Positions 20,601-50,814 of a stretch of 53,017 nt of DNA are shown piece by piece; the first letter of the stretch is position 1, and each line of letters opens with the position of its first letter. Origin of the DNA: Magnetococcales bacterium (GTDB taxonomy: Bacteria; Pseudomonadota; Magnetococcia; Magnetococcales; UBA8363); the NCBI GenBank assembly GCA_015660855.1, contig JACSDG010000031.1, forward strand, positions 1 through 53,017, in the 5' to 3' direction. The position numbers and the translations under genes are program-made. The notes under the pieces were generated by a model that ran no database searches, was not told the DNA's origin, and was given only the letters and a program-made list of their open reading frames with translations.

Positions 20601-23600
20601 TCGGCAAAGGACCATTCCTCCAAAGCCTGCCGTACCCCTGCTTCCTGGCCGCGAATGGCTTCCACCACGGGTCCGACGATATCCGCCGCATCCAGTTTTT
20701 TCCCGGCCAAACCTTTGATCGATTCCTCAATAGCGACATGCCCTTCTGCCAACTGCCGCGCCTGTCCCTGAAGTGCCGCCAGCACCGGAGCCAAAACCGC
20801 CGCATCCCCATGGATATCCGCAGCCAAACGCTCCGCCCATCGGCCAAACTCACCCCGAATTTCCTCCAACAACCGTGGCAGCGCATAGTTTTCCTCGACC
20901 GCCGCCAATACCCGTTCCCCCTCCGCCCGAACCGCCACCAGCACCGGCTCCAGCGACACCCCACCACCAGCATCGCCACGCACCGCCACATCCCGCAAAG
21001 AATCCATGATGACGCCAGCCTGCCGCCGTACCAGGGATTCCTCCAACCCCGCTACCGATTCCAACACCCGTTGCAGCCAAAGATCACCCGATTGCAGTGC
21101 GTCCTTGATACGACCTTCCAAAGTTTCCAAAACCCCTGGCGTCACAGCAGATGCAACCGTTTCCGGCAAGCGTTCCGCCAGTAGGCGTTCCAGGTTTTCC
21201 CGTTGACGAACCACCAGGGCCTCCCCCTGACGCCGCACTTCCGCCACCAACGTCTGCGTACTTTCCCCACCCACCCCAAGATCAACCGTCAAACGGGAAA
21301 CGGCGGCATCCATGGCTTCCATGTGCGACCGGGCCAAACGGGTCGCCTGTTCCTCCAGACGCCGGGCCACTGGATTCAATTCGCCGCGCACCGCCTGCAT
21401 GACCGCCTGGGGGGACAACATTTCCTTCAGCCCCACCTCCACTCCATCCAACGCCAGTCGTAGGGTATCCCCCTGACGCGCAACGATTCGCCCCCCCTCC
21501 TCCCGAACCGACTTGAGAATTTCCGCCAGGCGGGCATCCACCTGACCGCCACGATTCAAGATGGATTCCTCAATCGCCCCGACCGCCTCCGCCAACCGCG
21601 CCGCCAACGCCTCCCCCTGGGAACGCAACCCCTGGAACACCCCTGCCATTTTGTCTTCCCTGGCCGCCGTCGTCGCTGCAAAACGCTGCAACAACCCCTC
21701 CTGCCCACCCTGGAGCAATGCCAGGAGGGCATCTCCCGAAAGGCGTTTATCCAGGGCACTCTCCACCAACGCTTCCTGGCGAGCCAGCATGCGTTCCCCT
21801 TCGACCTTGATGGCGACCAGCACCGGCTCCATCTGCATCTGGCCGTTGTCATCTCGCAAGGTAATGCTGGCAAAAGCCTCACCGATGGCGCGCGAATGTT
21901 CCCTGGCCAGGCGTTCCCCCTGAGCGTCCAATGCCGCAAGCAACGCAACCAAAGAACTTTTCACCTCGGCCATATTTTCCCTGAGGCTCTCCTCAAGGCG
22001 GACATGCTCGGCACGAATCGCCTCCTGAATGGATTCCCCCGTCCAAATGCCCGACAAAGCCTGATTGAGAATCCCTTCCTGCCGTTTGAGAAGACGTTCA
22101 CCCTCTTGGCGCACATCGGCAAGGAGGGTCTGCAACGCCGGATCATCCGCCAAAACCCGAGCTTCCAAACCTGTCAGGGCTGTTTCAATCATCCGCGTCT
22201 GCCGCTTGAGGACATCTTCACCCTGCTGTTGCATCTGCCCCACCAAGAGCCGCATCTCTCCCTGAACCCCTTGAATGATGACATCCGGCGCGAGGGTATC
22301 CTTGAATCTGGCCACGACCCCATCCACCGCCATCCGAACATTTTCCCCCTGGCGAACCAGAATACGTTCCCCCTCGGCGCGAACTGCCGCCAGCACGGTC
22401 TGTACTCTTTCCTCCCCCGGTTCAACCATGGGCAGCAACCGCCCGAACAAATTTTGCAAAGATGCGGCATGAGAAGCCAACATGGCGGCACTCCTGGATT
22501 CCAACGCCTCCAGCGACCGCCGCCACTGCCCCTCACCCTGACCCAGCCGCGCATCGATCAAACCCATCCATTTTTCCTGCTCCCCCTTGAGCGCGGCCAG
22601 GATGTCCCCCATCACCGGCGCGGCTACCTCCGATCCAGAATCTGCCCGTTCACGTCGCCATTCCGCCTTTTCCTGCGCCCACATCCGCCCCTGGGCCTCC
22701 ATTTTTTCTGCCAGGGATTGGGCTTCGACCACAACGGCGCGGATCACATTTTCGGTGGAAAATCCAGAGCGTAAACCATCCTCCAACATCCTGACCACAT
22801 CACCAAGGGCCTCCTTCTGCGCCGCCAGAATCCGCCGCCCCTCCAACCGCACCGCCTCCAGGACAGACGCATCACCATCTCCCGCAACCACCACCCCCCT
22901 GGAAGCTTCCGCCACCGTTACGGCATAGTGCCGGCTTACGCGTTGTTCCAACTCCGACAAGGCTTTCCATATCGGATCCAAAGAGACGGGCACCACCTCC
23001 AGGCTGGCACGCATTTCCCGGAGCATCCCCCGGTTTTCCTCACGGATCCCCTCCACCATCAAACCCGAGGAAAAACTGTCACGAAACACCCTGGCCATGT
23101 CTTCCATAGCCGAACGCATCGCCTCCGACTGCCGCGCCACCCCCCGTTCCCCTTCAAGGCGGATGGCCGCCAGCACAGGTTCAAGTCGGACGTTTCCATC
23201 CGTCCCCGCAACGGTCAGCCCCCCCAAGGCCCCTTGCAACGTACGTCCGTACAGATCCATCTGATGCTGGTTGCGCTCCTGAAACTGTTCCATGAGGGCA
23301 CTCATATCGGTGCGAATGGAACGGATCAGCACCTCCGGATTCAAGGATTCACGCAACTGGACAGTCATACCCGCCAGGGCCTGGGCCAAAGCCTCCCCCT
23401 GACGCCTGACAATTGTTTTTCCCTCATCGCGCAACGCCTCTAAAACCGGCTGCAACCCCGACACACCCTCCCCCGCAAGGACTGTTTTTTCCGCCATGAT
23501 CTGGGCCAGGGAATCGCGAATGATGGTGGCGTGGCGTTCGGCCATCTGCCGCCCCTGGGTCTGAAAGGTGGCCAACAAGGGATCCAAAGATTGACGCAGC

Positions 23601-25414
23601 GTCGAGAGTTCCTGATACCATTCACTGGAAAATCCGGCCAAAGCCTCCCGGACCGCCTGCATGAAAACCTTGGGGGAAAATCGTTGATCCAAAATTTCCT
23701 TGAGGGCTGATTCATGTTGCAACCCCAGACGTTGCCCCTCGGCACGCACCGCCGCCACCAGGGGCTGAAGTTCCAATTCACCCCCCGCCCCTTTGACCGC
23801 AACCGCGCTCAAAGCCTCCTGAATGGCCTCACGGTGCTGTCTGGCCCACTTTTCACCCTGTTCGTCCATGGCCACCAACACAGGATCCAGAGAGATTCTT
23901 ACTGTGGCCAGATGCTGCCTGAATTGCCCCATGAGGATCCGATTTTCTTCCCGTATCCCTTCAAGGATCTCCTGGGATTGGGCCGCCTGGGAAAATCCAG
24001 AGCGCATTTCCTTGAGAAGGGCATCAAAACCATCCTGCTGCCGCTGCGCCAATTGCCGGCTCTGAAGGGCAACGGCACTTTGAACACTTTCAAGGCCAAA
24101 CCCCGTCACCTCGGCATGTGTCGCCATCCCTTCTAAAAGTTTACTCACCACCCCCGCATGCCCTTCGGCCAACTGCCGACCCTGATGCCGCAAGGCCTCC
24201 AACACCGGTTCCAACAGTTTGTCGGCCACCGGCAAGGTTTCGCGAAGACTCCGTTCCAAAGTGCCCGTGTCTGACCGAACGCCGGCAACCATTCGATCCA
24301 ACTGCCCACCCAAACTGTCCCGCAATCCCCCAACCGCCTCTTCCAGGGCCACACGCACCATGCTTTCGTGACGGCTCACGATCCGATCCCCCTCCCTGCG
24401 CACCGCCGTCATCACCGCGTCCAGGGAAAAACCTTCTCCCTTCGTTTCCATCCATCGGGATTCGGCCTCCAGGACCCGTTGGACCGCCTCGGTCTGCCAA
24501 CGCCCCAACTGCTCCCCCTGCCTGCGAATGGCCTCCAGAACCGGCCCCAAATCGACCTGTCCCGAAACCAGGCTTTCACGAATTTTTTCCCCCAGAGTAA
24601 AAATTTCCTTTTTAACGGATCCAACCGTCCCATCCAGATGGGAGGCGATTTCCTGAGCCATCCCCTGGGGATCCATGAGAGCACGAAAATCTTCCTCAAA
24701 GCGTTCGCTGGCGGTGGAATTGACCTCGAAGCGTACCGATTGGACGCGATCCGACAGCAACCGGCGAAATTGCCGCGCATAGGCAGTCAGAAGATCCATT
24801 TGCAGGCGATGGCCATAGGAAAACAACAACCCGGCCAATAGGCCGGCAAAGGCGGGAAACAATTTGTAGGAGAAAGATTTAAGAAAAAGGGCCGTGGCCT
24901 CCCAGGGATGGTTGCGCAGGTCGGCAACATCCAGGGGAGGTTGATCCAGGGGGGCCAGAGTCAAGGGGGCAAAAAAAAGACCGGAGATAAAACCGGCCAG
25001 GGAAATCAACACCCCCACCCCCAGCAAATAGTAGGGCAGCAAACGGTAAAATCTCAGATCCATGTGCCCTTGCAACAGGGCATCGACCGAAAAAAAAGAT
25101 TCCGGTTCGTGGAGGGATTCCACCCAGCGATCAGAAATTCTAAGCCCCTGGCGGTAACGCCTCCAGGGTTGGGAAAGGAGTTCGTTTTTGGCAAACTCGC
25201 CGTCCAGTTGTGGCAGCCGGTCGGAAAAATCCCGGACATCCAGATTGGTCAGGACATGGATGCCATCGGCCAGCATGGCGCGCACCGGAAGCAGAATTCC
25301 CAAACGCCAGACCAACCATTGCCCCATGGCCCACAGAAAAATCACCTCCCCGGACAACCAGGAGGTTATGGGTTGGTTTAAAAAGTGTAGAATCTGCTGG
25401 AACATGTCATCCAT
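11681..25414 (-). CDS. Giant membrane protein: MotA/TolQ/ZorA-like pore domain plus very long helical repeat tail
   Basis: The single open frame encodes 4577 residues. Three membrane helices lie near the N-terminus (about 18-42, 126-149 and 181-202), with ~80 cytoplasmic residues between the first two. The last pair, LLPYYLLGVGVLISLAGFIS and FPAFAGLLAGLLFS, has the Gly/Ala-rich pattern of MotA/TolQ/ExbB channels, closest in layout to ZorA of Zorya anti-phage systems. From about residue 260 to 4000 there are many degenerate helical repeats built on LEPVLAAVRAEGER-LARQGE-VR-AL and DPVLEALRQQGRQLAERH. The C-terminal ~550 residues hold low-complexity linkers around a helical block (about 4275-4410). 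ZorA tails are several hundred residues, so this is extreme. No MotB/ZorB partner adjoins. It is convergent with the sigma-54 gene and divergent from the cNMP gene. The coding call is certain; the pore assignment is inferred. Confidence 0.85.
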   Translation of the reverse strand: MDDMFQQILHFLNQPITSWLSGEVIFLWAMGQWLVWRLGILLPVRAMLADGIHVLTNLDVRDFSDRLPQLDGEFAKNELLSQPWRRYRQGLRISDRWVESLHEPESFFSVDALLQGHMDLRFYRLLPYYLLGVGVLISLAGFISGLFFAPLTLAPLDQPPLDVADLRNHPWEATALFLKSFSYKLFPAFAGLLAGLLFSYGHRLQMDLLTAYARQFRRLLSDRVQSVRFEVNSTASERFEEDFRALMDPQGMAQEIASHLDGTVGSVKKEIFTLGEKIRESLVSGQVDLGPVLEAIRRQGEQLGRWQTEAVQRVLEAESRWMETKGEGFSLDAVMTAVRREGDRIVSRHESMVRVALEEAVGGLRDSLGGQLDRMVAGVRSDTGTLERSLRETLPVADKLLEPVLEALRHQGRQLAEGHAGVVSKLLEGMATHAEVTGFGLESVQSAVALQSRQLAQRQQDGFDALLKEMRSGFSQAAQSQEILEGIREENRILMGQFRQHLATVRISLDPVLVAMDEQGEKWARQHREAIQEALSAVAVKGAGGELELQPLVAAVRAEGQRLGLQHESALKEILDQRFSPKVFMQAVREALAGFSSEWYQELSTLRQSLDPLLATFQTQGRQMAERHATIIRDSLAQIMAEKTVLAGEGVSGLQPVLEALRDEGKTIVRRQGEALAQALAGMTVQLRESLNPEVLIRSIRTDMSALMEQFQERNQHQMDLYGRTLQGALGGLTVAGTDGNVRLEPVLAAIRLEGERGVARQSEAMRSAMEDMARVFRDSFSSGLMVEGIREENRGMLREMRASLEVVPVSLDPIWKALSELEQRVSRHYAVTVAEASRGVVVAGDGDASVLEAVRLEGRRILAAQKEALGDVVRMLEDGLRSGFSTENVIRAVVVEAQSLAEKMEAQGRMWAQEKAEWRRERADSGSEVAAPVMGDILAALKGEQEKWMGLIDARLGQGEGQWRRSLEALESRSAAMLASHAASLQNLFGRLLPMVEPGEERVQTVLAAVRAEGERILVRQGENVRMAVDGVVARFKDTLAPDVIIQGVQGEMRLLVGQMQQQGEDVLKRQTRMIETALTGLEARVLADDPALQTLLADVRQEGERLLKRQEGILNQALSGIWTGESIQEAIRAEHVRLEESLRENMAEVKSSLVALLAALDAQGERLAREHSRAIGEAFASITLRDDNGQMQMEPVLVAIKVEGERMLARQEALVESALDKRLSGDALLALLQGGQEGLLQRFAATTAAREDKMAGVFQGLRSQGEALAARLAEAVGAIEESILNRGGQVDARLAEILKSVREEGGRIVARQGDTLRLALDGVEVGLKEMLSPQAVMQAVRGELNPVARRLEEQATRLARSHMEAMDAAVSRLTVDLGVGGESTQTLVAEVRRQGEALVVRQRENLERLLAERLPETVASAVTPGVLETLEGRIKDALQSGDLWLQRVLESVAGLEESLVRRQAGVIMDSLRDVAVRGDAGGGVSLEPVLVAVRAEGERVLAAVEENYALPRLLEEIRGEFGRWAERLAADIHGDAAVLAPVLAALQGQARQLAEGHVAIEESIKGLAGKKLDAADIVGPVVEAIRGQEAGVRQALEEWSFADTLIDTLRAGHESMELRLRELPAHHEAWSNRVMAALQSQGTLLAQRHSQALAEALADIAVKGDDGVNRLEPVLALVKAEGERILSRQGELVRVALAENFSLAPILATIRDEHTRLVEQLRIDGEGDAEVVQPILSALKAQGQALLEGHTAIQESLQELRGISVDAIVDPVVAALQAQEVRILERGQEGVRGVLEAWPFADTLIDTLRAGHESMELRLRELPASNEQWFKRVTEVLRVQGEDLAQRHAQVMAQALADVAVKGDDGVNRLEPVLALVKAEGERILSRQGELVRVALEEKFSLDAILATIRAEHAHLIEQWSQNARGDETILNSVLAELKDQGQQLLADHSAVQEALQGLAGTGFNPDLVETALRTEGKRIVEAVREGMRQLVEDRGGRNLLNSILAGQEELRQSLRENQLGTEKLVKPIIDAMKVQGQMQMAQYTRAIGEVLENVAVRDHDGRLQVEPLLAAVKAEGERTLSRQGEMIGKAMEGAVAAIFEMVAPNAVLDAVRSEVTVFGRRLEGIEDRLLQRYTQSVVGTMTEWTAQWEDKGLAGDSVVVAIKGEVENLFSRQLSEVRLLLEGGFSRLKVMETAASLPMVVDDRPQTGLNLTPILEEVKNQGQQLIQHQTQVMEEILARWQAAGGDAGDREALVTRLLGEMAQLMDRHDDRVRRALEDLEGRLPESMGADAGLQGLMGEMDRLHVAFSEGIRRLDFSLDPVFDALEKQSDALAERMTLQIHETLEKVGTQGGEHGLTLDPVLAAIRGEGEWFFSRQQATIQQAMDAAVSNLGAVFSSHPVMEALYNRQKDISEHVTAEIQRMVDPLVVAVAAQGTLVPQQLRAIENALSDHLEVGMASLVSSMEQESARLLDTQRGVMRQTLEELTARLGEKLSSDRLVAAMRDDLPSSQQNSVVGSESSGSAMAQAVLDGLQRLMVDLDSRQDDQTARILSGLAVLLSESFSPTFLAQTLQEEMQRLGAREERSYDDLMEQMQKSLTQITESVEQRFRQLGDELHGRLDLAMVEVGSRQEGAGQNPERLLPLLRGEITRVTDAHGHMLRESFSAMLHEATGMLSLQPILDAVAQVSQTLVQRLDAAMTGVLAQVRQERGDASGMDWGSVERQQKSWFDEHGRMVRDLLRETMEQWRAAQVSPDLLVDPVLAVVRQEGQHLLDQQEDMLAGRLGTLMDSLRGMISTDVVRQTMRQELADFGQTMLEKSSVGNPTSENLLTVFRDQVAAIVERQTVKISEWMQQAAHGVAGGDCLLETSLVEVLRGDVERLVQGQGVMLQGHLEELRTLITGVGDGPVATMPSEARDLVIMRGGEERFAAALLEPVLQTIRHEADLWSRTHGDVLRDVLADIKERFSSPVVALEPIFAAIDKGNEAILARLSHPQGVEALLKGFREENERFLERMEQQTPMVPLIEALQAQTDRLLRQQKEALDAGITRLLVGDGQAFPFEKIMQTLRDQSDRVVGQLSEGLALQPVLQILEGHLRELGENQFHTLHQALMAMTSSLTDGRLELEPVIAAVREEGARLSSRLVEQMSFTPILEALIEQGQRLVSAQTEVVEGALTRHFQESGLDAGKLAHQLEVHLDELRDTLSSQINPEPLMRMIREESRRLLESLPEGGVKEGILEGIEQSESRLLQRLSALVSPDRMVATVADAVDAVVGRHAVGLGDSLGRIEGQQARNVSLWQADLKQVRDDVGNDFAGRLRSELQQVREALHQGMEQVGNGLAGRLNSGLEEVRGRIVADVGGRLGEELEQQTGDLLTGMRAVLEEKADDMVSRMETAGSGAEVGLSRRVEEIMDGAQVMFSSLSQALVRQGDALEKVLTGLSGLGAQVDPKPALARMLAEIRELFGQQQGQFAEEVSSRLHAAQMEATAVGAIREEGERLLMAQGTALTQGFAEFLTRVNSAATPGEVAEVVRMQLTSFRGELGLRLQELSHGSSKAVTVVLETLGEEMRGRHAGMDVLLRRLLESQAVLADRPDWQPVLAEMRRDMEVWQGGQSERFAAMLTARLGDVATADVVVSALRGEGEKLLAVQSQVMQRGLDAILERIPSMAGIEDAVTAVDFLRSELAGLLASETHRLETLAARAATSMESVIVSARTQMTGIQDLGGEIRDLLDRQGRWFKETIAARLESSGMAARLVSAFKEESEILMEAQATRVDERLGALFADLEARFSSQDFVDVVRGETARLAEDFRRGLADVEVALSVANVDPVLRAMQEQTAHLQNNQQQELAPILEYMTQPVPATDWSPVREMVAGEIRRMLVSQSEVMQNISAGLVEINAGLAPDIQAMLTVLRGQVQSGLQAAVSQASASWSDMQAQSRRQTEARALEIQNTVIASVREQGAWLASEQKRILDEVVQTLARGEHSEVISLPAIQMALGEEFDRLAGILEQWFSSVVERIEATQGREVDLQVVVDAIRGEGLRLQEELHQHVSPQPVVDAIMAETNRLFMGHGEELGRKLEAILSSRAGLGVAATVGMEEEGDAGETMVDVVEDTWQDAGVVEEEPGSGVALALEVVDVPAVPETVATEVGAGMVPQGNDGSVFRAWVSGMVKDNDETTVADVPGQPVADKVVYTQRSHSKPTLGGSPWLGRLPSVGKVPTPTVREAGGGVVEGEKDGTVAPVVVDNRIRVVYPVFEGQAGDDTGEEKIHGALVSARKDWVRLIQAMQGSRQGEIDGQSLSDLLASMGRFLTNHFGREAAFLVAMSDDLCSRLRWGAAVSDPVIARLLDQFGHQSNAFMTSHDRDALEVMALDHGFQKAAGTLKGQISAISNRSVRSRSAKVFRSGGIVTDVAAPKEDVPEPVPAKPLESVFAQEIKAESVPKPVVAYVSMGGAVQRFADALRVRTTPREDATAKGAKRPSDEVVEQRASKKTEPAFSSVSKPVPVATRTVVGGSPFRKVEEVIEPKVEGSPITGKESQTRRLPEVSKALPENLAVPTSKTEMENRFFSAFLDRRREGQE
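19740..20612 (-). repeat. Recent ~600-bp tandem duplication inside the giant gene
   Basis: Blocks near 19745-20010 and 20340-20610 are almost identical at DNA level with an offset close to 600 bp. Both encode FADTLIDTLRAGHESMELR and VKGDDGVNRLEPVLALVK followed by ILSRQGELVRVAL. Most other repeats in the gene are recognisable only at protein level, so this pair duplicated recently. Confidence 0.8.
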
Positions 25415-29706: not shown

Positions 29707-32295
29707 ATGGTCATTGCTAAATCCACTCCGATCAAAACCCTCGTGCCGGCTCCGATCAAAACCCTCATGCCCGCGATCATCGCCATTTCTCGAATCGGAC
29801 TGGCCCTCTTTGCCATTGAGTTTATCGTCATGCTCATTCTGCCTCGGTTGATCGGCGAGGGAGGAATGGAAACTTGGTTCGCTACGGTGGGAGATGCCTT
29901 TTTACTGGCGGTACTTTCAACCCCTGTAATCATTAAAATATTGCGCCAAGAATACAAAAATGAAAAATTTTTCTTCAACTCCAAATTATCGTTTAGTTTT
30001 GTCGCCTTTAACGTAGGTGTTGCCATCTTTTCCGTCACATTTTCAGTGGAATGTGGCATCATGCTCCTTGTCCCTCTGACAGGATTCACGGAAGGATCCT
30101 TCATCCTGGCGGCTCTGGACGCCGCTCTGCTCGCCCTGGTCGCCGCCCCTGTCGTCTTCTTCCTTGTCGTGGTGGATCGCGGTCGTATCTTTACCTTCTC
30201 CAATACCGACAAGTTGCGTAACGTCAGGCGACAGTTTCTACTGCTGTTCCTTCCACAGCTTGTGTTTTTTTCGTTGATTACTGAGGCACTCTACTTTCAG
30301 GAAACCCGATCCCAGAGAAAACATGTTGCCGCCGAAGATGTTCGCAGACTGGAATTGCTCCGGGATAATCTGGCGCGGGAAATGGCCCATGTGGCAGAAG
30401 ATTTACGGTTACTGATACGGGATCCGAATATTATCGAAACCATAAAGGGCAATCTGGAGGCGGAAAAATTATTGATTCAAAATTTTTCACAGTTATTGCT
30501 GGCAAAAAATCGCTACCAAGGTGCCTCTCTCATCACTCCCCATGGAAAAACCCTGGTTCATGTTGATCGGCGCAACATGGGTCGCAACACACAGGAAACA
30601 GCGGAACATATCGTAGACCGTCCAAAAGAAACGGCCAGCCCGGACGACAGGAATACGGGCGATGTCATCCTGATTTCCCCGCCCCACTCCCAACAGGACC
30701 ATTCCGTGTTGCGGTTCACATTCCCCATTCAGAACGTACAAAGTCAAAGGGTTGCAACGATTTATCTGGACAGCCTGTGGGACACATTTGAGGCCATCAT
30801 CAACAATCAGGCCCCCCATATGGTGGGACAATTGCATCTTTTTTCCGCCGGTCAATCGCCCATTTACTCTTTTGGTCCCGCCTCCCATGATTTGTCCGTG
30901 GAGAATGGCAGTCTGTGGGAAAAAATAATCGCCGCCCAAAGTCCGCACATTGAACATGAAAAGGGGGTGATCCTTTTTGCAACGGTGCATTCCCTGACAG
31001 GTTTCCGTGGTCCTCTCTGGAAACTGGTTTCCTGGATTTCCCTAGAAAAACAAGGTGTCCTTCAGTCCGCTTTTCGGCGGCACCTGCTCATTTTCCAATC
31101 CCTGTTGATCGTCCTGGCAGCCATCGGAAGTTGGATTTTTTCTCAAACCATCGTCAACCGGCGCGAAGCGGACGCCCGCAATGAACGGGCACATCAATCA
31201 CGTATCACCTTGAGCGCGCTCCTCGAAACCACCCTGACCCCCATGACCATGGAAAAGCAACTGCACACCGCCCTGCAAATCGTCAGTACAACCCCCTGGG
31301 TGGGCATGACCGGCAAGGGAGCCATGTTTCTTACAGACCCCAATTTGCAACAAATGCACCTGGCGGCACAGGAAAATCTAAGCCTGGGTGAACAACAGCG
31401 ACTCAAAAGGGTACCCGTGGCCCGGTGCCTTTGCCAACAAAACAACAACTCGCGCAAAGTTCTTAAGTTTCCAAAAGATTTCCCCGACCATGTCCCTTGC
31501 CTGGACAACACCAGCCGAGGGAGCTATTGCATTCCTATTCCAGGGATCCATGGACCTCTGGGGGTGATGCACATGCAGTTGAAATCGGGACAACCATCCT
31601 ACGACGAAGAAGCCTTCTTCTCCACCGTGGCAGGTACTCTTTCAGGAATCATCGAAAGGCGCAGGATGGAATCGGAGCTGCAACATAAAAATGAAGAACT
31701 CAGAAGAACCCGCCTCGACATCATCCACCGTCTGGGAATGGCCGCCGAATATCGGGATCAAGACACCGGATTGCATGTGGTACGCATGAGCAAATATGCC
31801 ACCATTTTGGCACGGGCCGCTGGTTTTTCAGAAGAATTTTGCGAAATCTTGACCAACGCCGCCCCCATGCACGACATCGGTAAAATCGGAATTCCCGATC
31901 ATATCCTCCTCAAGCCAGCCCTTTTGGACGAACATGAGAGAGAAATCATGAAACAACATACCTTGATCGGTTCTGTCATGTTGCATGGTTACGAGGCGGA
32001 GCCCATGAATACTGCCCATATCATTGCCCTGACCCACCACGAACGCTGGGATGGCAAAGGCTATCCTATTGGTGTTCCCGGCGAGGAAATCCCCATCGAA
32101 GGGCGAATATGCGCCATCGCGGATGTTTTCGATGCCCTCACCAGCGACCGGCCCTACAAAAAAGCCTGGAGTGTCGAACGAACCCTTGAAGAAATTCGCT
32201 CCTCCGCAGGAACCGCTTTCGACCCGGACCTAGTGGCTACCTTCGGGGATATTTTCCCGGAAATTGTCGCCGTCCGGGCCATCTATAACGAGTGA
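29707..32295 (+). CDS. Membrane-bound HD-GYP phosphodiesterase with periplasmic sensor and GAF-like domain
   Basis: This 862-residue protein should degrade c-di-GMP. Five hydrophobic helices lie in the first ~195 residues. A long extracytoplasmic segment (about 196-458, Cache-like in layout) comes next, then a membrane helix (about 460-480) and a GAF-like region (about 505-645). The HD-GYP domain has the HD pair in MHDIGKIG (722-723) and HHERWDGKGYP near residue 777, all intact. Several early ATGs exist; 29707 keeps the full membrane region. It is convergent with the GGDEF gene downstream (8 nt between stops), an opposing-enzyme pair. Confidence 0.88.
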   Translation: MVIAKSTPIKTLVPAPIKTLMPAIIAISRIGLALFAIEFIVMLILPRLIGEGGMETWFATVGDAFLLAVLSTPVIIKILRQEYKNEKFFFNSKLSFSFVAFNVGVAIFSVTFSVECGIMLLVPLTGFTEGSFILAALDAALLALVAAPVVFFLVVVDRGRIFTFSNTDKLRNVRRQFLLLFLPQLVFFSLITEALYFQETRSQRKHVAAEDVRRLELLRDNLAREMAHVAEDLRLLIRDPNIIETIKGNLEAEKLLIQNFSQLLLAKNRYQGASLITPHGKTLVHVDRRNMGRNTQETAEHIVDRPKETASPDDRNTGDVILISPPHSQQDHSVLRFTFPIQNVQSQRVATIYLDSLWDTFEAIINNQAPHMVGQLHLFSAGQSPIYSFGPASHDLSVENGSLWEKIIAAQSPHIEHEKGVILFATVHSLTGFRGPLWKLVSWISLEKQGVLQSAFRRHLLIFQSLLIVLAAIGSWIFSQTIVNRREADARNERAHQSRITLSALLETTLTPMTMEKQLHTALQIVSTTPWVGMTGKGAMFLTDPNLQQMHLAAQENLSLGEQQRLKRVPVARCLCQQNNNSRKVLKFPKDFPDHVPCLDNTSRGSYCIPIPGIHGPLGVMHMQLKSGQPSYDEEAFFSTVAGTLSGIIERRRMESELQHKNEELRRTRLDIIHRLGMAAEYRDQDTGLHVVRMSKYATILARAAGFSEEFCEILTNAAPMHDIGKIGIPDHILLKPALLDEHEREIMKQHTLIGSVMLHGYEAEPMNTAHIIALTHHERWDGKGYPIGVPGEEIPIEGRICAIADVFDALTSDRPYKKAWSVERTLEEIRSSAGTAFDPDLVATFGDIFPEIVAVRAIYNE

Positions 32296-32303
32296 CCCTT
32301 CCT

Positions 32304-34451
32304 TCAATCCCAGGACGTTGCCGCCGCCTCTAGATCGCTCCAGTGCATGACCCGGTTTCTTCCCGATCTTTTCACGGCGTAGAGGGCTTTGTCGGCCAGT
32401 TTGACCAATTCCATGGGGTTATTGACCTTCGCCTGGGGATATGAAGCCACCCCTATACTGATGGTCACCTTCATGGACCGAACCTCCATGTCCTCAATCT
32501 TGCGCCGAAAGTTCTCCGCAACCAACATCGCCCCTGAGGAACCCGTGTTGGTTAACACCAAACAAAATTCCTCCCCACCGTAACGACAGGAATAATCGCT
32601 TTGGCGCAAATTGCTGCGGGCCGCTTCACCAATGCTTTCCAATACCAAATCACCCATATCATGGCCATAGGTGTCGTTAAATTTTTTAAAATGATCCACA
32701 TCAAAGAATAAGACAGACAATTCCAAATGATACCGGCTGGCCCGACTGAATTCCTTGACCATGAATTCTTCCAGCCAACGCCGGTTGAACAAACCAGTCA
32801 ATTTGTCGGTAACCGAAATTTTTCTTAATTCCGACTCCAATTGTTTTTCCTGGGTCACATCCCGCATCAAGGCAATCGAGCCGATTTTGCCTCCATTTTG
32901 ATCCAAGAAACTCGAAGCATAAAAATTAAGGACACGTCCCTTATACACCACAACTTCTGGAAGATTTTTATTGTCAGGATTTATGTAACTTTTAATGTAG
33001 TCGGGTTCATCCACCAGATTAAAAAAACCTTCGCTCCGAATCTGCTCCGCTGTTTTGTCCAGCAAACGCTCTGCGGAGGGATTAACCAAAACGACAGCAT
33101 CATCCTGGTCGGAAACAATAATTCCTTCACGGGTCGTGTGGATGATGGTGGTCAGTTTGTTTCTTTCCTGCAACAGAAAGGATTGATTACGGCGTATTTC
33201 CCGACTCATTTCGTTGAACAGGGCAACAATTTTCCCCAGTTCATCATTGGATTCGATTGGAAGATCATCGCGAAAACGATTCTCCTCAAGATCGTGCATT
33301 GCCGCAGATAAAAGTTTAAGCGGCTGCGTAATATGACCAGAAACAATACGTACAGCGACAGTCCCAACGATCAATACTAAAAATACTGTAAACAGAATCA
33401 TGTTGCGAATACCCGCCAGGGATGAATCTCCCTTTAGCAGATTTTCGTAGGATTGAACACGCACCAAGCTCCAGTCAAACTGGGGCAAGGATTTGTAACT
33501 GACAAAATAACGCTTGGAATCGGTGTCGAAATGACCATAACCCTCGTTACCCGCACGGGCTTGTTCCATCAGGGCGAGAAAGCCGGGATCGTTGGAAATG
33601 GTACGCACATGGGACAGATAATCTTCCAGGTTGGGTTTTCCTTCGCGTATGAATTCAGGCTTTTGCAAAAAATCCGTCGCTTTGGCACTATCCACAATCA
33701 CCAACCCGTCAATGGTCTGAATGAACATGCGATCGGACAACGGATCAACCTTTTCGGTGCTGGTATTATTTCTGCGGGGGGTGCTGGCATCGGTTATAAA
33801 TTTTTGAAATAAGCTTAATGGGATCTCAAAATGGTAAAATGCAGGAATGGTTCCGTCATCCAAAACCACCGGAGAGGTGTAGGCAAACACCCACTCAGCG
33901 ACATCTGTCGACATATAGGGTCGGGATACATAAACCTCACCGGCGGGCAGATCAAAGGAGGGTTTGAAAAAAGGGGTTGAAGCCTCACTGGCCGACAAAT
34001 CCTCGTTGGCCGCCACTTTGCCACGGGTAATGCGTGTATGTTCCTGGCCCGATCGGTCGATGATGCAAGTTTCAACGATGGGGAAACGTTTTTGCAGTGA
34101 GAAGGTCCATTGGTTGAGTTGTTCACGCAAATAGCGCTGCCGCCATGACAACGCCAGCTTGCCTTCAGCATTGAGGAGATGACCTTTCAAAGTTTCCGGC
34201 AGGGAAAAATAATCTTTGAAAATGCGGTTCTCCAGTGCGAAGACCATGGCACTCTTGGCCTGCTCGTGGAAAACCTGATTCTTTCCAAATATATGTTCTA
34301 TATCATTGTGCATGTCCCCAATAGCACTGGAAATGACCGCCTCCTCCGTTTTGTTGAAGGAAAACCAGCCAATGCTTCCCGTGGCCAGGACAAGCAGCAC
34401 GGAGAAGATAAAAGAAAACTTATTTTGAATTTTATAGAGAGAAAAGGCCAT
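32304..34451 (-). CDS. Diguanylate cyclase with Cache-like, HAMP, PAS and GGDEF domains
   Basis: This 715-residue protein makes c-di-GMP. A membrane helix near residues 12-30 is followed by a ~300-residue periplasmic sensor, a second helix with LFTVFLVLIVGTVAV, HAMP, a PAS domain with IIVSDQDDAVVLVNPSAERLL, and a GGDEF domain. The active site is GGEEF near residue 624, and an RQSD inhibitory site lies five residues before it, so product feedback is expected. The ATG at 34451 has GGAAAG 10 nt upstream; a TTG at 34469 is an alternative. It is divergent from the CHAT gene. Confidence 0.9.
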   Translation of the reverse strand: MAFSLYKIQNKFSFIFSVLLVLATGSIGWFSFNKTEEAVISSAIGDMHNDIEHIFGKNQVFHEQAKSAMVFALENRIFKDYFSLPETLKGHLLNAEGKLALSWRQRYLREQLNQWTFSLQKRFPIVETCIIDRSGQEHTRITRGKVAANEDLSASEASTPFFKPSFDLPAGEVYVSRPYMSTDVAEWVFAYTSPVVLDDGTIPAFYHFEIPLSLFQKFITDASTPRRNNTSTEKVDPLSDRMFIQTIDGLVIVDSAKATDFLQKPEFIREGKPNLEDYLSHVRTISNDPGFLALMEQARAGNEGYGHFDTDSKRYFVSYKSLPQFDWSLVRVQSYENLLKGDSSLAGIRNMILFTVFLVLIVGTVAVRIVSGHITQPLKLLSAAMHDLEENRFRDDLPIESNDELGKIVALFNEMSREIRRNQSFLLQERNKLTTIIHTTREGIIVSDQDDAVVLVNPSAERLLDKTAEQIRSEGFFNLVDEPDYIKSYINPDNKNLPEVVVYKGRVLNFYASSFLDQNGGKIGSIALMRDVTQEKQLESELRKISVTDKLTGLFNRRWLEEFMVKEFSRASRYHLELSVLFFDVDHFKKFNDTYGHDMGDLVLESIGEAARSNLRQSDYSCRYGGEEFCLVLTNTGSSGAMLVAENFRRKIEDMEVRSMKVTISIGVASYPQAKVNNPMELVKLADKALYAVKRSGRNRVMHWSDLEAAATSWD

Positions 34452-34630
34452 GTTAACGAAGCTTTCCAACCTAAAGCGTAACGCCGATCAGGCAAACCAG
34501 GGGCTCAACCTCGAAAATCCCGGTTCGGATTTTACCTTGCTTCACCACCCACGCGCCATGGATTGCTTGACGAAAGAATCGTTTCAACCTTGGAAAAATA
34601 GGGGTGGATGCAGCGGTTAAAAATAACTTG

Positions 34631-34713
34631 CCATGGAACCAACTATTAAAATACTGTGACGCATCATGTGTTGAACGACGGAGGTTGGCTCTGGTTTTTT
34701 GGTGGGTGGAGGG
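34631..34713 (+). repeat. 5' flank block of the CHAT gene, homologous to the DUF4258 upstream region
   Basis: CCATGGAACCAACTATTAAA and the following ~20 nt align with 40485-40525 with one 1-nt gap. After ~27 extra nt, CTGGTTTTTTGGTGGGTGGA aligns with 40524-40546. The block ends at the ribosome site of the CHAT gene. It may carry the promoter. Confidence 0.65.
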
Positions 34714-34720
34714 AAAATCC

Positions 34721-43903: not shown

Positions 43904-45793
43904 ATGAATAAAAAAATTCTGTCCATTTTGTCGGCGATGGACCTGAAAAAAAAGACCACTCTGATGATCGCGGCACTTTCTGGTACCATGATTGTCATGC
44001 TGGCTTTCGTCAGTCTGTTGACGTTTCGGGAATTTTCCATCGCCACGGCCAGGGATCATGTCCGATCCGTCGCCGAAGTGATTCGGGTCGGCCTGACCGA
44101 AGCCATGATCAATGGCACGATCGACAAACGAGATCAGTTTCTCAAAAGGCTTTCGGAAATCGAAGGTTTTTCGCAAGCACGCGTCATTCGCGGTCCAGAA
44201 GTCGTCCAACAGTTCGGTAGCGGCCTTGAGGTTGAGCAGGTTTCCGATGGCATCGATCAAACCGTCATGAAAACCGGCGAGCCTTATTTTTCCATAGTTG
44301 ACGGAGAGATGACTCCCATATTCAGGGGAACCATCCCGTTTGTTGCTTCTGCTGTGGGTACTCCGAATTGTTTGCAATGTCATCAGGTTCGTGCGGGTGA
44401 TGTCCTGGGCGTCGTCACCATTTATCTTTCCATGGAGCATTTACGTAATAAGGCACTGGAAAGCATTGGCGTCATGTTGGCCATCGTCGTCATTTTCTCT
44501 TTGTTCCTGGCTCTTTTCTTTCGTCGCCAGATCAACCCGGTCGTTCAAACCGCTCAGGGGGTGCAGCATGTCGTCGCGCGTGCCACGGATGGGGATTTCA
44601 GTGGCACGATTGCGTATTCCGGCGGTGACGAAATGGGCTTGATCTCCAGAGATCTTAACCGGCTTATGCAACACTTGCAGATCAACCTTGGTGCCATCAG
44701 TCATGACATTTCTAAGTTGATTCATTATGAAATTGAGGAAAACAGCAACCTGGTGACCACCACCACCGAGATGGTGGAAACCTTGCTCGATGTGGCTCAA
44801 TTCAAACAAGCTGTCGAAGAAGATCAAACGACTCAGGAGGTTTATTTCCGCATCAGTCGGTTGTTGATTGAAAAATTTGGCGTCGCCACCTTTTCCATTT
44901 ACGAAGTGATGATTGGGAAAAACAATATCAGGCCTGTCGTCGTCGATGGCGATCCACAAAAAGCTGCCCGTTGGTGTAGTGCGAGGGTTATGTTTCATGC
45001 CGATTCGTGTCGTGCCCACCGTACCGGTCACGTCATTGACTCCTTTGAAAATCGTTACATTTGCAGCCAGTTCAATCATTCCGATGATACTAAAGAGTTG
45101 GGCCATATATGTATCCCTGTTTTTCATTCCGGACAGGTGGGGATGATTATTCAGATCGTGGCTTCGCGTGTGGAGGGGCCGGTTTATCAATTTCTTCTGC
45201 CTTTCATCCGCACCTACCTGCGGGAGTCTTCTCCCACCGTCGAAGCCAAGCGTCTGTTGGACACCCTCAGAGAATCCACTCTCAGGGATGCCTTGACTGG
45301 TTTGCACAATCGCCGTTTTCTCAAGGAGTTTGAGGATACGCTGGTTGCCACAACCCGCCGCAAAAACAGCAGTCTTTCCATTTTGATGATGGATCTGGAT
45401 CATTTCAAACATGTCAACGATACCTATGGTCACGATGTCGGGGACACGGTGCTCAAGGCCCTTGCAAAAACCTTGAGCAATCAGGTTCGCACCTCCGACA
45501 TTGTCATTCGTTATGGGGGTGAGGAGTTCATGGTTGTTCTTCAGGAAAATTCGGATTATACCGGGACTCAGTTGGCGGAGAAAATTCGGCAGGCGGTTGA
45601 AAAAATGAAAATTCAATTTTCTGGCGGGCAATTGCAAAAAACCATTTCCATTGGTGTGGCTGGGTTTCCTGCGGATGGGGAAGAATTCTGGGATGTGGTC
45701 AAAGCGGCTGATCTGGCTCTTTATGCTGCGAAAAAGGGGGGGCGCAATCGTTGGGTCTGCTATGATCCGATCCTGGCTGAAAAGCCCGTCTGA
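43904..45793 (+). CDS. Diguanylate cyclase with periplasmic CxxCH haem motif
   Basis: This 629-residue protein has a membrane helix near residues 20-42, then a ~145-residue periplasmic domain ending with a c-type haem signature CLQCH (Cys156, Cys159, His160) in GTPNCLQCHQVRAGDVLGV. A second helix (about 185-206) with ALFFRRQINPVVQ leads into HAMP. A GAF-like region (about 290-440) precedes the GGDEF domain with GGEEF at 538-542 and an RTSD inhibitory site five residues earlier. It resembles Tll0287/DUF3365-type haem sensors coupled to c-di-GMP synthesis, so redox, NO or O2 control is likely (inferred). AGGA directly abuts the ATG, so initiation may be weak or the start may be elsewhere. Confidence 0.88.
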   Translation: MNKKILSILSAMDLKKKTTLMIAALSGTMIVMLAFVSLLTFREFSIATARDHVRSVAEVIRVGLTEAMINGTIDKRDQFLKRLSEIEGFSQARVIRGPEVVQQFGSGLEVEQVSDGIDQTVMKTGEPYFSIVDGEMTPIFRGTIPFVASAVGTPNCLQCHQVRAGDVLGVVTIYLSMEHLRNKALESIGVMLAIVVIFSLFLALFFRRQINPVVQTAQGVQHVVARATDGDFSGTIAYSGGDEMGLISRDLNRLMQHLQINLGAISHDISKLIHYEIEENSNLVTTTTEMVETLLDVAQFKQAVEEDQTTQEVYFRISRLLIEKFGVATFSIYEVMIGKNNIRPVVVDGDPQKAARWCSARVMFHADSCRAHRTGHVIDSFENRYICSQFNHSDDTKELGHICIPVFHSGQVGMIIQIVASRVEGPVYQFLLPFIRTYLRESSPTVEAKRLLDTLRESTLRDALTGLHNRRFLKEFEDTLVATTRRKNSSLSILMMDLDHFKHVNDTYGHDVGDTVLKALAKTLSNQVRTSDIVIRYGGEEFMVVLQENSDYTGTQLAEKIRQAVEKMKIQFSGGQLQKTISIGVAGFPADGEEFWDVVKAADLALYAAKKGGRNRWVCYDPILAEKPV

Positions 45794-46009: not shown

Positions 46010-48160
46010 TCAGGATTCGCTGCCTCCAACAAAAAGCCCTGGCGGCAAGGATTCACCGTAGAGACTGACCTGATCGGCGCGGACAACAGGGAAGAATTCC
46101 AGCACCCGCGCCACTTTCAACGACGACACCCCCGCCTTTTCCAGTTTGGAGCCGATTTTTTTGCGCAAGGAGGCTGCGACATCCAGGCTGCGATTGTCTA
46201 CAACGCGGGCTGCTTGCAAAAACAGCGTTTGCATCTCCAAACCCTGGGGGCCTGACCAATCCAATGGCGAAAATATGTGAAACACCTGCTCCACCTTGTC
46301 CGGAGAAACCACCGCTTCGGGACCGGCATACAGGGGGGTTCGGTTGAGCAATAAACCCAGGGCGTTCAAATAGGGATCCGCATATTGTTTGGCTTTGAGT
46401 AGATTTTTGGCACTGTCAGCGTAAAAATCAATCAGTTCCGTCTTGATTTCATGTCCCAACCGCTCCAACGCCCCCGAAAGACGAATCAACTCCGGTGATA
46501 CCCCCTTGGTTCCTCGCAAAGAGTGCAGTTCGGGGGAAAAAAGGCGTTCCTGGCGTTGCCGATCCAATCCCCCGGCCACACGACGCCAAAGAATGTGCTC
46601 CTGGAGACGGATACGCTTGCCGGGAAAAGCCTGCCCACCCTCTTTGAGTCGCCACAGACTGTCCATCCGTGCCTCATCCATGATGGCTCCAAAACCCGGA
46701 CGTAAAAAATATCCCGCCAGGATCAACCAAGTCTCTTCGTGATCGATGGAATTGGATCGATACAGGAAACTTTTTTCCAATGCCTCCCACAATCCACGAA
46801 CCACCACCCAGTTCCATTCCCCCTTGGGGCGGCCAAACATTTCTTCCAAACTTTTCGTCAAACGGGTCGCAGTCAATTTGTCCCGTTTGTCGATGCGCTG
46901 GGAAAATAATGTTTGTATACGTTCCTGCGCCATGACCATGGCCTCCGCAGAGACATTAGGCTCGGCTTTGATCATGGCCTCGGTATGGGATCTTTTGGCC
47001 GTCACCGAACCCGACTCATGTGGGCGTAAATTAAATTCAAGGGGCCAAGTTTGTTTTACATCGGCATGCTGACTGTGCAAAAATATTTGTAACAAACCCA
47101 ACTCATTCTGTTCGGCACTCAAAGAAACCGGCAGGGTCTTTCCCATCCGTTTTTCCTCCGCATCATCCAGTTTGATGATGGTTTCCAACGCCAACAGCGG
47201 ATGAAATTCTTTTTCATTCCAGTCCACCAGACCGCCAGCCTTAACCTTTATCCCGCGTGTGGAATAATGGCTTTGGAAACGTACCGGGCGATTGATTTGT
47301 AGTGACAGGGCCAAGTCATCCATGGCAAACCGTTCGCCGCTTTTGGCACCACGGGGAAGAATACAGACCAGGGAGGGAGGGCCAGAGGCTTTGTGGTGCG
47401 CGTCCCCTTTGCGATGGACCTCCAGAAAAATGGCACGGGGTGCCCCTGCCTCGATACGATTTTCCTTGGTGTGCAAAATGCGACCGTAACGCGCTGCCCC
47501 CAAAGCAACGGCCAGGTCAGGTTCCCGATTTTCCAAAGACAATGGCGTGTAACCTTCCTGCCAGTTGCCGATTTGCAGAAGTAACCGTTCCCGGACCAAA
47601 ATGGGAAAAAGGGATCCTCCGTTGAACAGGATGGCATCCACCCTGGGTAAACCGTTTAAAAAGGCCGCCAAATGTTTGGTAATGGCACTGTCGGTGGCAT
47701 AGGGAAGGCCCCATTCCTTGAAGGCCCCACGGGCGGTCTCGGGAACAGCAGCGCGGTCACATTCGGGGAAAAAACCTTCAAAAAGAATTTTATGGATTTC
47801 TCCACGGGTCATGCGGGCCGACATGGCACTACTGAGCAGTGACGCCCCCCGCCCAGATATGGACAGGCTGAAAAATTCGTCGGCTGACCCGTCCACCGCC
47901 AGGGCTTTCTCTTTGAGATCCCGGCAACGGGCCACGAGGTTTTCCCATTTTTGTCCGGTCAGTGGTTCTCCATCGCCCACGAGACGCGGTTGCAGTCGAT
48001 GGGCCATGGCCAAATCAATGTTATCCCCCCCCAGGAGTATGTGCTCGCTGACGGCGACGCGGCGGATGGTCGGTGATACCTGACCCGGTTGCCGTTCCAG
48101 AGAAAACAGCGAAAAATCGGAAGTGCCTCCAATCCTGCTGCCGATCCTTGGGAAGCCCAC
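46010..48160 (-). pseudogene. Hsp70-family protein, C-terminal part after a frameshift
   Basis: This frame holds most of a large (about 930-residue) Hsp70-like protein. It starts in the middle of the nucleotide-binding domain at GGTSDFSLF (the second phosphate motif), continues through the adenosine-binding ILFNGGSLFP region, and ends with a long C-terminal part unlike DnaK's substrate domain. The N-terminal half lies in another frame directly upstream. The junction near 48130-48145 has lost part of the DxGGGT motif: only RIGGTSD remains. It is probably a broken gene, unless the assembly is wrong here. Confidence 0.75.
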
Positions 48161-48800
48161 CCCACAAGGCTTCCTGGGTCGGGTGCCGTTCCAGCCAACG
48201 ATAAAAAGCGGCCTGGGGTTCTTCGATCAGGCGTACCTCTTTGGGAAATCCTGCATCGCGTGCGGCAATCAGGGTCAGGCGTTGGGCCACGGCATCGAAC
48301 GATGCGGGAACGGTGATGGTAATACTCTGATTCTCAAAGGCAAAATCACTCCCGGAAGACGCAAAACGATCATTCCATGCCCCACTGAAATAATTAAGAA
48401 TCAAGGCCAGGGCATGCAGGGGAGAAATTTTTTCGTTGGGAGCCAGTTCTTCGGAACCAAAGGGTAGAAATGGCGCGGTACGATCAGAAGCATGGTGACA
48501 CAGCCAGGATTTGGCCGAATGGACGACCCGCCCTGGGGATTCGGCAGCCCGTGCTCGGGCCAAATGGCCGACAATCCAGGGATCCTTGCGTAGTCGATCC
48601 TCCGCAAATTGCGATACCAACGCCGCTTCGGGGAGATAAAGAAAAGAGGGCAAAGTGGACGATTCACCCACGTTCGCCCTGGAGAGCCATTGCACCACCG
48701 GAAACACTTCACTGGCCGATCCCCCCTGGAGGGGTTGAAACGCCATGACGCTGCTGGTGGTTCCAAGATCAATACCGATACTGTAACGTGCTTTGGACAT
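48021..48800 (-). pseudogene. Hsp70-family protein, N-terminal part before a frameshift
   Basis: This fragment begins MSKARYSIGIDLGTTSSVMA, the first phosphate-binding motif of Hsp70/actin ATPases. It continues through ITVPASFDAVAQRLT and LIEEPQAAFYRW. Meaningful similarity ends near 48145 (GLPKDRQQDW); the rest is out-of-frame translation overlapping the next fragment. It starts 7 nt after the response-regulator gene, so the two are likely co-transcribed. Confidence 0.75.
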
Positions 48801-48807
48801 GACGACT

Positions 48808-50814
48808 CTAGTATGTGCTGATATAATTGGGAACCCAATGGACGGCGTCTCCGTTCAGGGTTATGGCAGAGACCGGTCCGTCATGGGAAAGGACAAAGGC
48901 CACTGATCCAGGATAGCGGGCAACAAAATCTACGGCAGAACCATGACGGGTACCATATCTGGAACGGTCCACCTCGTGCAAAGATGGCGAACCGTCGCGG
49001 TTGTCATAGACAACCTTTCCGTGCCAGGTATTGGCGGCCAAAATGGCGCCGAAGGAAATGGGCTTCAACCGATGCGAGATGAGAACGGCACCGTCGATAC
49101 GGGTCAAGTGTGACAAAAACTCGGTGTGCTCGATCATTCGGCGCTTGACATCAAGCAGGGCTTGGCTGACGGCTTTCAGGCATGGCATTTCTTCCGGGTT
49201 GCCTTCAACCAACCGGACTCTTTTGATTTCCAACCGACAATGTTCGTCAATGATGCCAACCCCCTCGCAACTATCGATCAAAGGGTACCGGTCGGTCAGG
49301 GATTCCTGTGTTTTAACAACATAGTCCTCAGGCAGCCAAATGACTGTCCCCCCAGTGCTGTCTTCCGAGGAATGTACCAGGAGCAACAACAACACCGAAC
49401 GATAACTTTCCCAATACATGTCTTGAGATCTTTGGTATTCAGGGTGACCCTGGATACCGTTGAGTATTGTGGTTGCGATAATGCAATTTTCAAAAGGATC
49501 GGTCACAGGTTCGGAAAAGTGTCCGGCTTGAAAGTGGGCCAGCATTTTTTCACCCCATCGTATGACCAAAGAACCTGTTTTTCTGGAGTCAATGGTTAGA
49601 ACCTGGGCAGGTTTTTTCTGGGGAGGAAAAGGATCCAGCATGCTGCGACCACGGATACTGGCAAACAAGGCTCCCCAGATTTCCAGGTTGCGTGCATCAT
49701 TCGATTTGGCGCGCACAAAAAGAGAGGTTGTGGATGAATCAAACCCCGGACCCAGTTTGACGAGAGAGTTGACGGTAAAAGGTATAGGTGTTTCAAAGCG
49801 GATAAAGGGGGCATCAAACCCGGCATCGCTGGAAATCAAAGATTCATCCCCCAGGGCGACGCTGACTCTGACGGGCAAATCCTCCTCGCGGCGCAATCCG
49901 GCAAGGAAAACATTTTCCATGATGGACTTGACGTGATGGAACCCCAGAAGATCGGTATTTTGGGGATGAACCCGGTTGGCCAGAGCCAGAATGTGATCGA
50001 TGATGTGAGAATCGAACAGGGCCAAACCTTCCTGACCTCCCAAGGCTTTCTTGCGCTCGCTGATGTCACGGATCACGGCGGAGAAAAACATTTTTTTACC
50101 GGCATGCCAATGGGTTATGGAAATTTCCATCGGAAATTCCTCGCGATTTCTTCGCAGTCCCAAAAGCTCCAGCAACCGCCCAGACAATTTGACCCGACCG
50201 GTTTCACGTACCTGGGCAAGTCCTTCGGTGTGCTGATTGGCGAAGCGGGAAGGCATCAGCATGGTCAAAGGTCGCCCAAGGACATCCTCCTTGGCGTATC
50301 CAAAAATCAATTCGGCACCACGGTTCCAGAAAACAATGTTGCCATGGCTGTCGGCGGTAATGATGGCATCGCTTTGTGAGTCGGTGGCCAGGCGGATTTG
50401 TTCCTCTTTTTCCCGCAGGGCGATGAAGGAGGCTTTGTGGCGAAGGATACGCCGCATCCTTTGCCTGAGGAGATCCCAGTTGATGGGCTTGGATACGTAA
50501 TCTTCGGCTCCGGATTGAAACACGCGATTGATCGCATCGCCACTGGAAAGGGAAGTTACGATGACCACCGGGACATCGTCGCCTCCCGGAAGGGCCTTGA
50601 GTCTTCGGCAGGTTTCAAATCCGTCGATTTGCGGCATTTGTGCGTCGAGTAAAACCAGATCCGGACGGTGCTGTTCAAAAAGTTTAAGCGCATCAAGTCC
50701 GTTATCCGCCATCACGACGGCGAAACGATTGCCTTTCAGAAAAGTTTCCAAAAGCTGCAAAATGACGGTGTCGTCATCCACAATAAGGATCAGGTTTTTT
50801 TCTTGTTCGACCAT
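48808..50814 (-). CDS. Response regulator with PAS and diadenylate-cyclase-like (DACN) domain
   Basis: This protein is about 668 residues from the chosen ATG. Counting from a longer frame that begins at a TTG at 50889: the receiver domain has LIVDDD and the phospho-acceptor Asp82 in LVLLDAQMP, with SKP near 134; a PAS domain spans about 165-285 (DAIITADSHGNIVFWN); a central beta-rich region includes PIPFTVNSLVKLGPG and LEIWGALF; and the last ~95 residues resemble the DisA/CdaA nucleotide-binding fold, with IDGAVLIS (DGA 599-601) and YGTRHGSA (648-650). The RHR motif is RHG, so it may sense and not make c-di-AMP, as proposed for DACN-type sensor domains. The start is uncertain among 50814, 50868 and 50889. 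Confidence 0.8.
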   Translation of the reverse strand: MVEQEKNLILIVDDDTVILQLLETFLKGNRFAVVMADNGLDALKLFEQHRPDLVLLDAQMPQIDGFETCRRLKALPGGDDVPVVIVTSLSSGDAINRVFQSGAEDYVSKPINWDLLRQRMRRILRHKASFIALREKEEQIRLATDSQSDAIITADSHGNIVFWNRGAELIFGYAKEDVLGRPLTMLMPSRFANQHTEGLAQVRETGRVKLSGRLLELLGLRRNREEFPMEISITHWHAGKKMFFSAVIRDISERKKALGGQEGLALFDSHIIDHILALANRVHPQNTDLLGFHHVKSIMENVFLAGLRREEDLPVRVSVALGDESLISSDAGFDAPFIRFETPIPFTVNSLVKLGPGFDSSTTSLFVRAKSNDARNLEIWGALFASIRGRSMLDPFPPQKKPAQVLTIDSRKTGSLVIRWGEKMLAHFQAGHFSEPVTDPFENCIIATTILNGIQGHPEYQRSQDMYWESYRSVLLLLLVHSSEDSTGGTVIWLPEDYVVKTQESLTDRYPLIDSCEGVGIIDEHCRLEIKRVRLVEGNPEEMPCLKAVSQALLDVKRRMIEHTEFLSHLTRIDGAVLISHRLKPISFGAILAANTWHGKVVYDNRDGSPSLHEVDRSRYGTRHGSAVDFVARYPGSVAFVLSHDGPVSAITLNGDAVHWVPNYISTY

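Follow-up and report, generated by a model that had tools for sequence, protein, structure and literature searches.

Signalling by c-di-AMP has been described chiefly in Gram-positive bacteria and archaea, and the DACNV domain goes together with the diadenylate cyclase (DAC) domain. Pfam labels DACNV a 'probable sensor domain', and NCBI names proteins of the type of WP_243520307.1 (Hymenobacter) 'putative sensor domain DACNV-containing protein'; the literature searched, which included few subscription papers, yielded no mention of DACNV. In CdaA of L. monocytogenes, the side chains contacting ATP are those of the leucine of GALI, the aspartate of DGA, the threonine, arginine and histidine of GxRHRxA, and the serine and second glutamate of SEE, while the first glutamate contacts ATP by its main chain and the second binds the metal (PMC7288161). 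The third residue of the RHR motif, an arginine, is not among these listed contacts. DAC activity was killed when RHR was entirely replaced by AAA (PMC3328451; PMC4568413); as all three residues are changed in these mutants, they do not address the third arginine alone, and no test of it by itself was found in the literature searched. DAC domains function only as face-to-face dimers (PMC8573169).

The window analysed here, a stretch of 53,017 nucleotides from a Magnetococcales bacterium (contig JACSDG010000031.1), encodes a 668-aa protein which, with a probability of roughly 0.6, is a response-regulator, phospho-gated diadenylate cyclase, catalysis being predicted. What appears to be new is the fusion of a receiver to a putative diadenylate cyclase of the DACNV type; in Magnetococcia, this divergent form appears to substitute for the standard enzyme. 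Judged by titles, no paper on diadenylate cyclase or c-di-AMP in Magnetococcia was found; the receiver fusion may have a prior mention.

Gene, domain layout and neighbourhood

The minus-strand reading frame was unbroken over 668 codons, from an ATG at 50814 to a stop codon at 48808-48810, and displayed the features collected in Table 1. The earlier note, made from the letters alone, had described a fusion of receiver and PAS domains ending in DGA and GTRHGSA motifs, with RHG in place of RHR, all of which was recovered. It had overlooked DACNV and had confined the DAC domain to the last 100 residues, whereas this domain begins earlier, at a GGTVIW strand which is the counterpart of GALI (start judged from the alignment). 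The DACNV match exceeded its curated cut-off (53.4 bits vs 27) and, of all single features, points most strongly to a DAC-type protein; DACNV and DAC occurred together in 50 out of 50 scanned family members and in one Hymenobacter protein. The receiver displayed the acidic pair D13 and D14, the phospho-acceptor D57 and K109, all of them identical in six orthologues.

Table 1. Features of the gene for the 668-aa protein (positions in the window)
Feature	Position	Strand	Evidence
Whole gene, 668-aa receiver-PAS-DACNV-DAC protein	48808..50814	-	intact ORF and Pfam
Receiver, aa 9-120	50455..50790	-	Pfam PF00072 Response_reg, 3.5e-29
PAS domain, aa 148-253	50056..50373	-	Pfam PF13426 PAS_9, 8e-16
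DACNV domain, aa 294-382	49669..49935	-	Pfam PF21751, 6e-14
Divergent DAC (DisA_N), about aa 486-668	48811..49359	-	sub-threshold PF02457, family matches, joint alignment, shuffled hhalign
DGA motif, aa 574-576	49087..49095	-	conserved across the family
GTRHGSA motif, aa 621-627	48934..48954	-	counterpart of GxRHRxA
SHDGP motif, aa 643-647	48874..48888	-	counterpart of the SEE loop

An Hsp70/DUF3731 (DnaK-related) gene (46010-48800, minus strand) begins 7 bases past the stop of the DAC gene and is split into two overlapping frames of 259 and 716 aa; the frameshift, near 48021-48160, stems from an assembly error or else marks the gene as broken. This downstream gene and a 550-aa ORF upstream were considered as operon partners and rejected, since neither adjoins the orthologues, which lie next to acetate kinase, phosphotransacetylase and an unknown 225-aa protein. 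As the orthologue neighbours differ, no conserved partner was found; nor was a kinase partner present among the window genes scanned. Elsewhere in the window, a 4577-aa ORF (11681-25414, minus strand) gave no convincing Pfam match. Segments 29707-37651 and 43904-45793 encoded two GGDEF proteins, an HD_5 (HD-GYP-like) protein and a CHAT-NACHT/NB-ARC-TPR protein, and look rich in c-di-GMP signalling.

The C-terminal domain and its catalytic residues

The 668-aa protein matched the DAC profile PF02457 at residues 567-650, with an E-value of 0.055 for the whole protein and of 0.023 (14.7 bits) when the C-terminal part was searched alone. The profile match called for by the earlier note thus exists but stays under the curated cut-off of 27 bits, which was not reached by another family member (L050, 23.2 bits) either. 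All 50 scanned members matched PF02457 in the same place (best E-value 4e-5), and the matches from a genome-wide DAC search fell in the C-terminal part of DACNV-family frames. The C-terminus of the family, compared by hhalign with 30 standard CdaA proteins taken from other Pseudomonadota, scored 32.5 against a maximum of 19.8 among 60 column-shuffled controls, and the alignment paired GTRHxSA of the family with GTRHRAA of standard CdaA. Since every scanned member matched and the score lay above all shuffles, the weak match of the 668-aa protein is not due to chance, and the DAC-like ending originally proposed was borne out: DAC homology was found at the level of the family, though not by the Pfam cut-off for a single protein. 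The Hymenobacter DACNV protein matched the DAC profile at 1.6e-5 and displayed a full GTRHRAA together with a SQDG loop; judged by its sequence, it links standard DAC and the Magnetococcia family.

Across 64 distinct family proteins, the aspartate and alanine of DGA were present in 64 and the glycine in 63, and the glycine, arginine and histidine of the GTRH region were each found in 64/64. The threonine of GTRH was retained in 51 out of 64, with alanine or methionine in some paralogues. The full RHR motif was absent from the family, only R-H being kept: its third position was occupied by N, A, T, G, S or I (glycine in the 668-aa protein) and by arginine in 0/64. SEE corresponded to S-[Q/H]-D-G, with serine, aspartate and glycine each in 64/64; the aspartate, present in all 64, occupies the position of the metal-binding glutamate when counted from the conserved serine, the gap in the MAFFT alignment being placed one residue differently. 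Among the deviations of the family from standard DAC motifs were the third arginine of RHR, missing in every Magnetococcia member, and S-x-D for SEE. Among close orthologues the DAC C-terminus was the best conserved part (79-88 % identity vs 73-82 % for the receiver), and dN/dS was below 0.12 where computable, with dS saturated. This pattern of conservation is more in line with an enzyme than with a dead copy and makes catalysis a prediction drawn from residues.

Distribution of the family and of the c-di-AMP pathway

At least one DACNV protein was found in 43 out of 48 Magnetococcia genomes, whereas the 350 genomes sampled from other Pseudomonadota contained none. Many Magnetococcia families displayed one stand-alone DACNV protein of ~420 aa. 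The source genome harbored three DACNV proteins, namely the 668-aa protein, another receiver-PAS copy (C214) and a GAF copy (C148), and no stand-alone DACNV-DAC copy. Closest relatives came from Magnetococcales MAGs, with 70-78 % identity over the C-terminal 393 residues. In a tree of 64 core sequences with the Hymenobacter outgroup, all 25 receiver-PAS fusions formed one clade (97/85) and all 12 GAF fusions another (89/51), stand-alone forms being placed elsewhere; each type of fusion seems to have arisen once. The outgroup branch was very long, so that the root, and the stand-alone form as the ancestral one, are not firm. Relatives of the DACNV-DAC protein were found neither in the viral contigs nor in the phages searched. 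Membership in DS2_3_antiphage (NCBIfam) was rejected, since the match (best E-value 0.0032) was limited to the short GxRHxxA..SQDG stretch and indicates a shared motif; the PADLOC matches of the 668-aa protein lay within the receiver.

A PgpH-type (7TMR-HD) c-di-AMP phosphodiesterase was present in 46 out of 48 Magnetococcia genomes, in one copy each (split into two matches in one genome). Only one of the 350 other Pseudomonadota genomes (G071) displayed 7TMR-HD over the cut-off, in a 1141-aa frame, and no DAC match was found there. The search for a phosphodiesterase suggested by the earlier note was successful in the source genome, where a PgpH gene directly downstream of phoH encodes the 7TMR-HDED, 7TM and HD parts and preserves the HD residues. 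PgpH and DACNV occurred together in 42 out of 48 Magnetococcia genomes, a co-occurrence that rests on one clade and may thus represent a single historical event; four genomes, one of them 93 % complete (G027), contained PgpH without a DACNV match.

No standard DAC was detected in the 48 Magnetococcia genomes even at an E-value of 1, the matches at that level being the DACNV family, two proteins termed L078 and L079, and a few weak places. DACNV-DAC is the main DAC-type family of Magnetococcia, and no other was found apart from L078 and L079, which occur in two genomes. With no standard DAC in the class and PgpH kept, the DACNV family naturally suggests itself as the source of the product that PgpH removes. 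L078 (844-1920) and L079 (778-1731) are DAC-like, with GARHATA or GGRHASA, a SQDGP loop and DGC replacing DGA; one of them is followed by an AAA+ protein, possibly in a separate nucleotide-signalling or defence operon. Neither the c-di-AMP riboswitch RF00379 nor CdAMP_rec (PF06153) was found in Magnetococcia, and the GdpP model PF24898 was uninformative, as it seems to cross-match ordinary GGDEF proteins. In another Pseudomonadota family of the sample (f18), standard CdaA was almost uniformly present; c-di-AMP is thus not rare in every proteobacterial lineage, and the initial view of it as uncommon in proteobacteria was too broad.

Interpretation and relation to known systems

The 668-aa protein is best read as one member of a set of three paralogues that take the place of a standard diadenylate cyclase. 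A histidine kinase would phosphorylate the receiver, and signals from receiver and PAS, relayed via DACNV, would make two C-terminal DAC domains face each other, a step that we infer because DAC needs head-to-head dimers. The receiver of PleD dimerises on phosphorylation, and such phosphorylation-driven dimerisation would be a simple way to form the DAC dimer as well. This dimer would condense two ATP to c-di-AMP, which the product of the housekeeping PgpH gene would degrade; the 668-aa protein would then serve c-di-AMP as PleD serves c-di-GMP. Phospho-gating and the parts given to PAS and DACNV are likewise what we infer. At slightly less than even odds, the DACNV-type family as a whole may have replaced the standard c-di-AMP synthase in Magnetococcia, working without the third arginine of RHR and with SxDG for SEE, in some lineages under receiver-PAS or GAF control, phospho-gated and perhaps with an altered product.

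The earlier note had left the choice between synthesis and sensing of c-di-AMP. A sensor role of a catalytically dead DAC domain, with ATP or c-di-AMP as the bound ligand, would agree with the class-wide loss of the third arginine, with the change of SEE to S-x-D, with alanine or methionine for the threonine of GTRH in some paralogues and with the Pfam label of DACNV. We consider it unlikely, and synthesis likelier than sensing, because the aspartate, arginine, histidine, serine and acidic residue are invariant in 64 proteins, more strictly than a pseudo-enzyme needs, because most of these genomes contain no other DAC to make the ligand, and because PgpH is kept. That the motifs are conserved yet altered could also indicate an active cyclase with another product, such as a mixed or linear dinucleotide, its specificity shifted by the third RHR residue and the SxDG loop; L078 and L079, two odd DAC-like proteins of the class, have SQDG loops similar to that of the family, and neither of two known c-di-AMP receptor families was found. 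This we hold to be improbable, since PgpH belongs to a c-di-AMP phosphodiesterase family and the Asp/Arg/His/Ser contacts to ATP are all retained.

AlphaFold models of the C-terminus (393 aa and 199 aa), built with six orthologues, were poor (mean pLDDT 37 and 41) and were counted neither way; Foldseek with the second of them returned noise and no DAC structure, and a PDB profile search with the family gave chance matches only, with no DAC structure at an E-value below 10. The Foldseek and PDB results and the weak score of the single protein would suit an unrelated C-terminal domain without DAC fold whose short motifs resemble those of DAC by chance, a very remote prospect given the DAC matches of all 50 members, the hhalign score above shuffled controls and the intermediate Hymenobacter protein. 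A diadenylate cyclase under receiver control is the preferred reading. If active, the family would represent c-di-AMP made under direct two-component control, would help to tell which motif residues are essential to a DAC, and would equip magnetotactic cocci with a second cyclic dinucleotide network in addition to that of c-di-GMP. As annotation by the DAC cut-off or by RHR misses the family, DAC surveys of Pseudomonadota may undercount.

DACNV-DAC proteins (PF21751 with PF02457) such as WP_243520307.1 of Hymenobacter (Bacteroidota) have in common with the Magnetococcia family the domain order, DGA, GTRH and the SQDG loop. WP_243520307.1 differs by its full RHR, the third arginine never being found in the Magnetococcia family, and has neither receiver nor PAS. 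CdaA, DisA and CdaS display DGA, G-x-R-H and a conserved serine with an acidic residue in the same order. The Magnetococcia family differs from them by RHx for RHR, by SxDG for SEE and by a greater distance from the GALI-like strand to DGA, and it lacks the membrane part of CdaA and the DNA-binding part of DisA. The receiver-GGDEF diguanylate cyclases PleD and WspR would share the general plan of a receiver-driven nucleotide cyclase, whereas their catalytic fold is unrelated to DAC and another product is expected.
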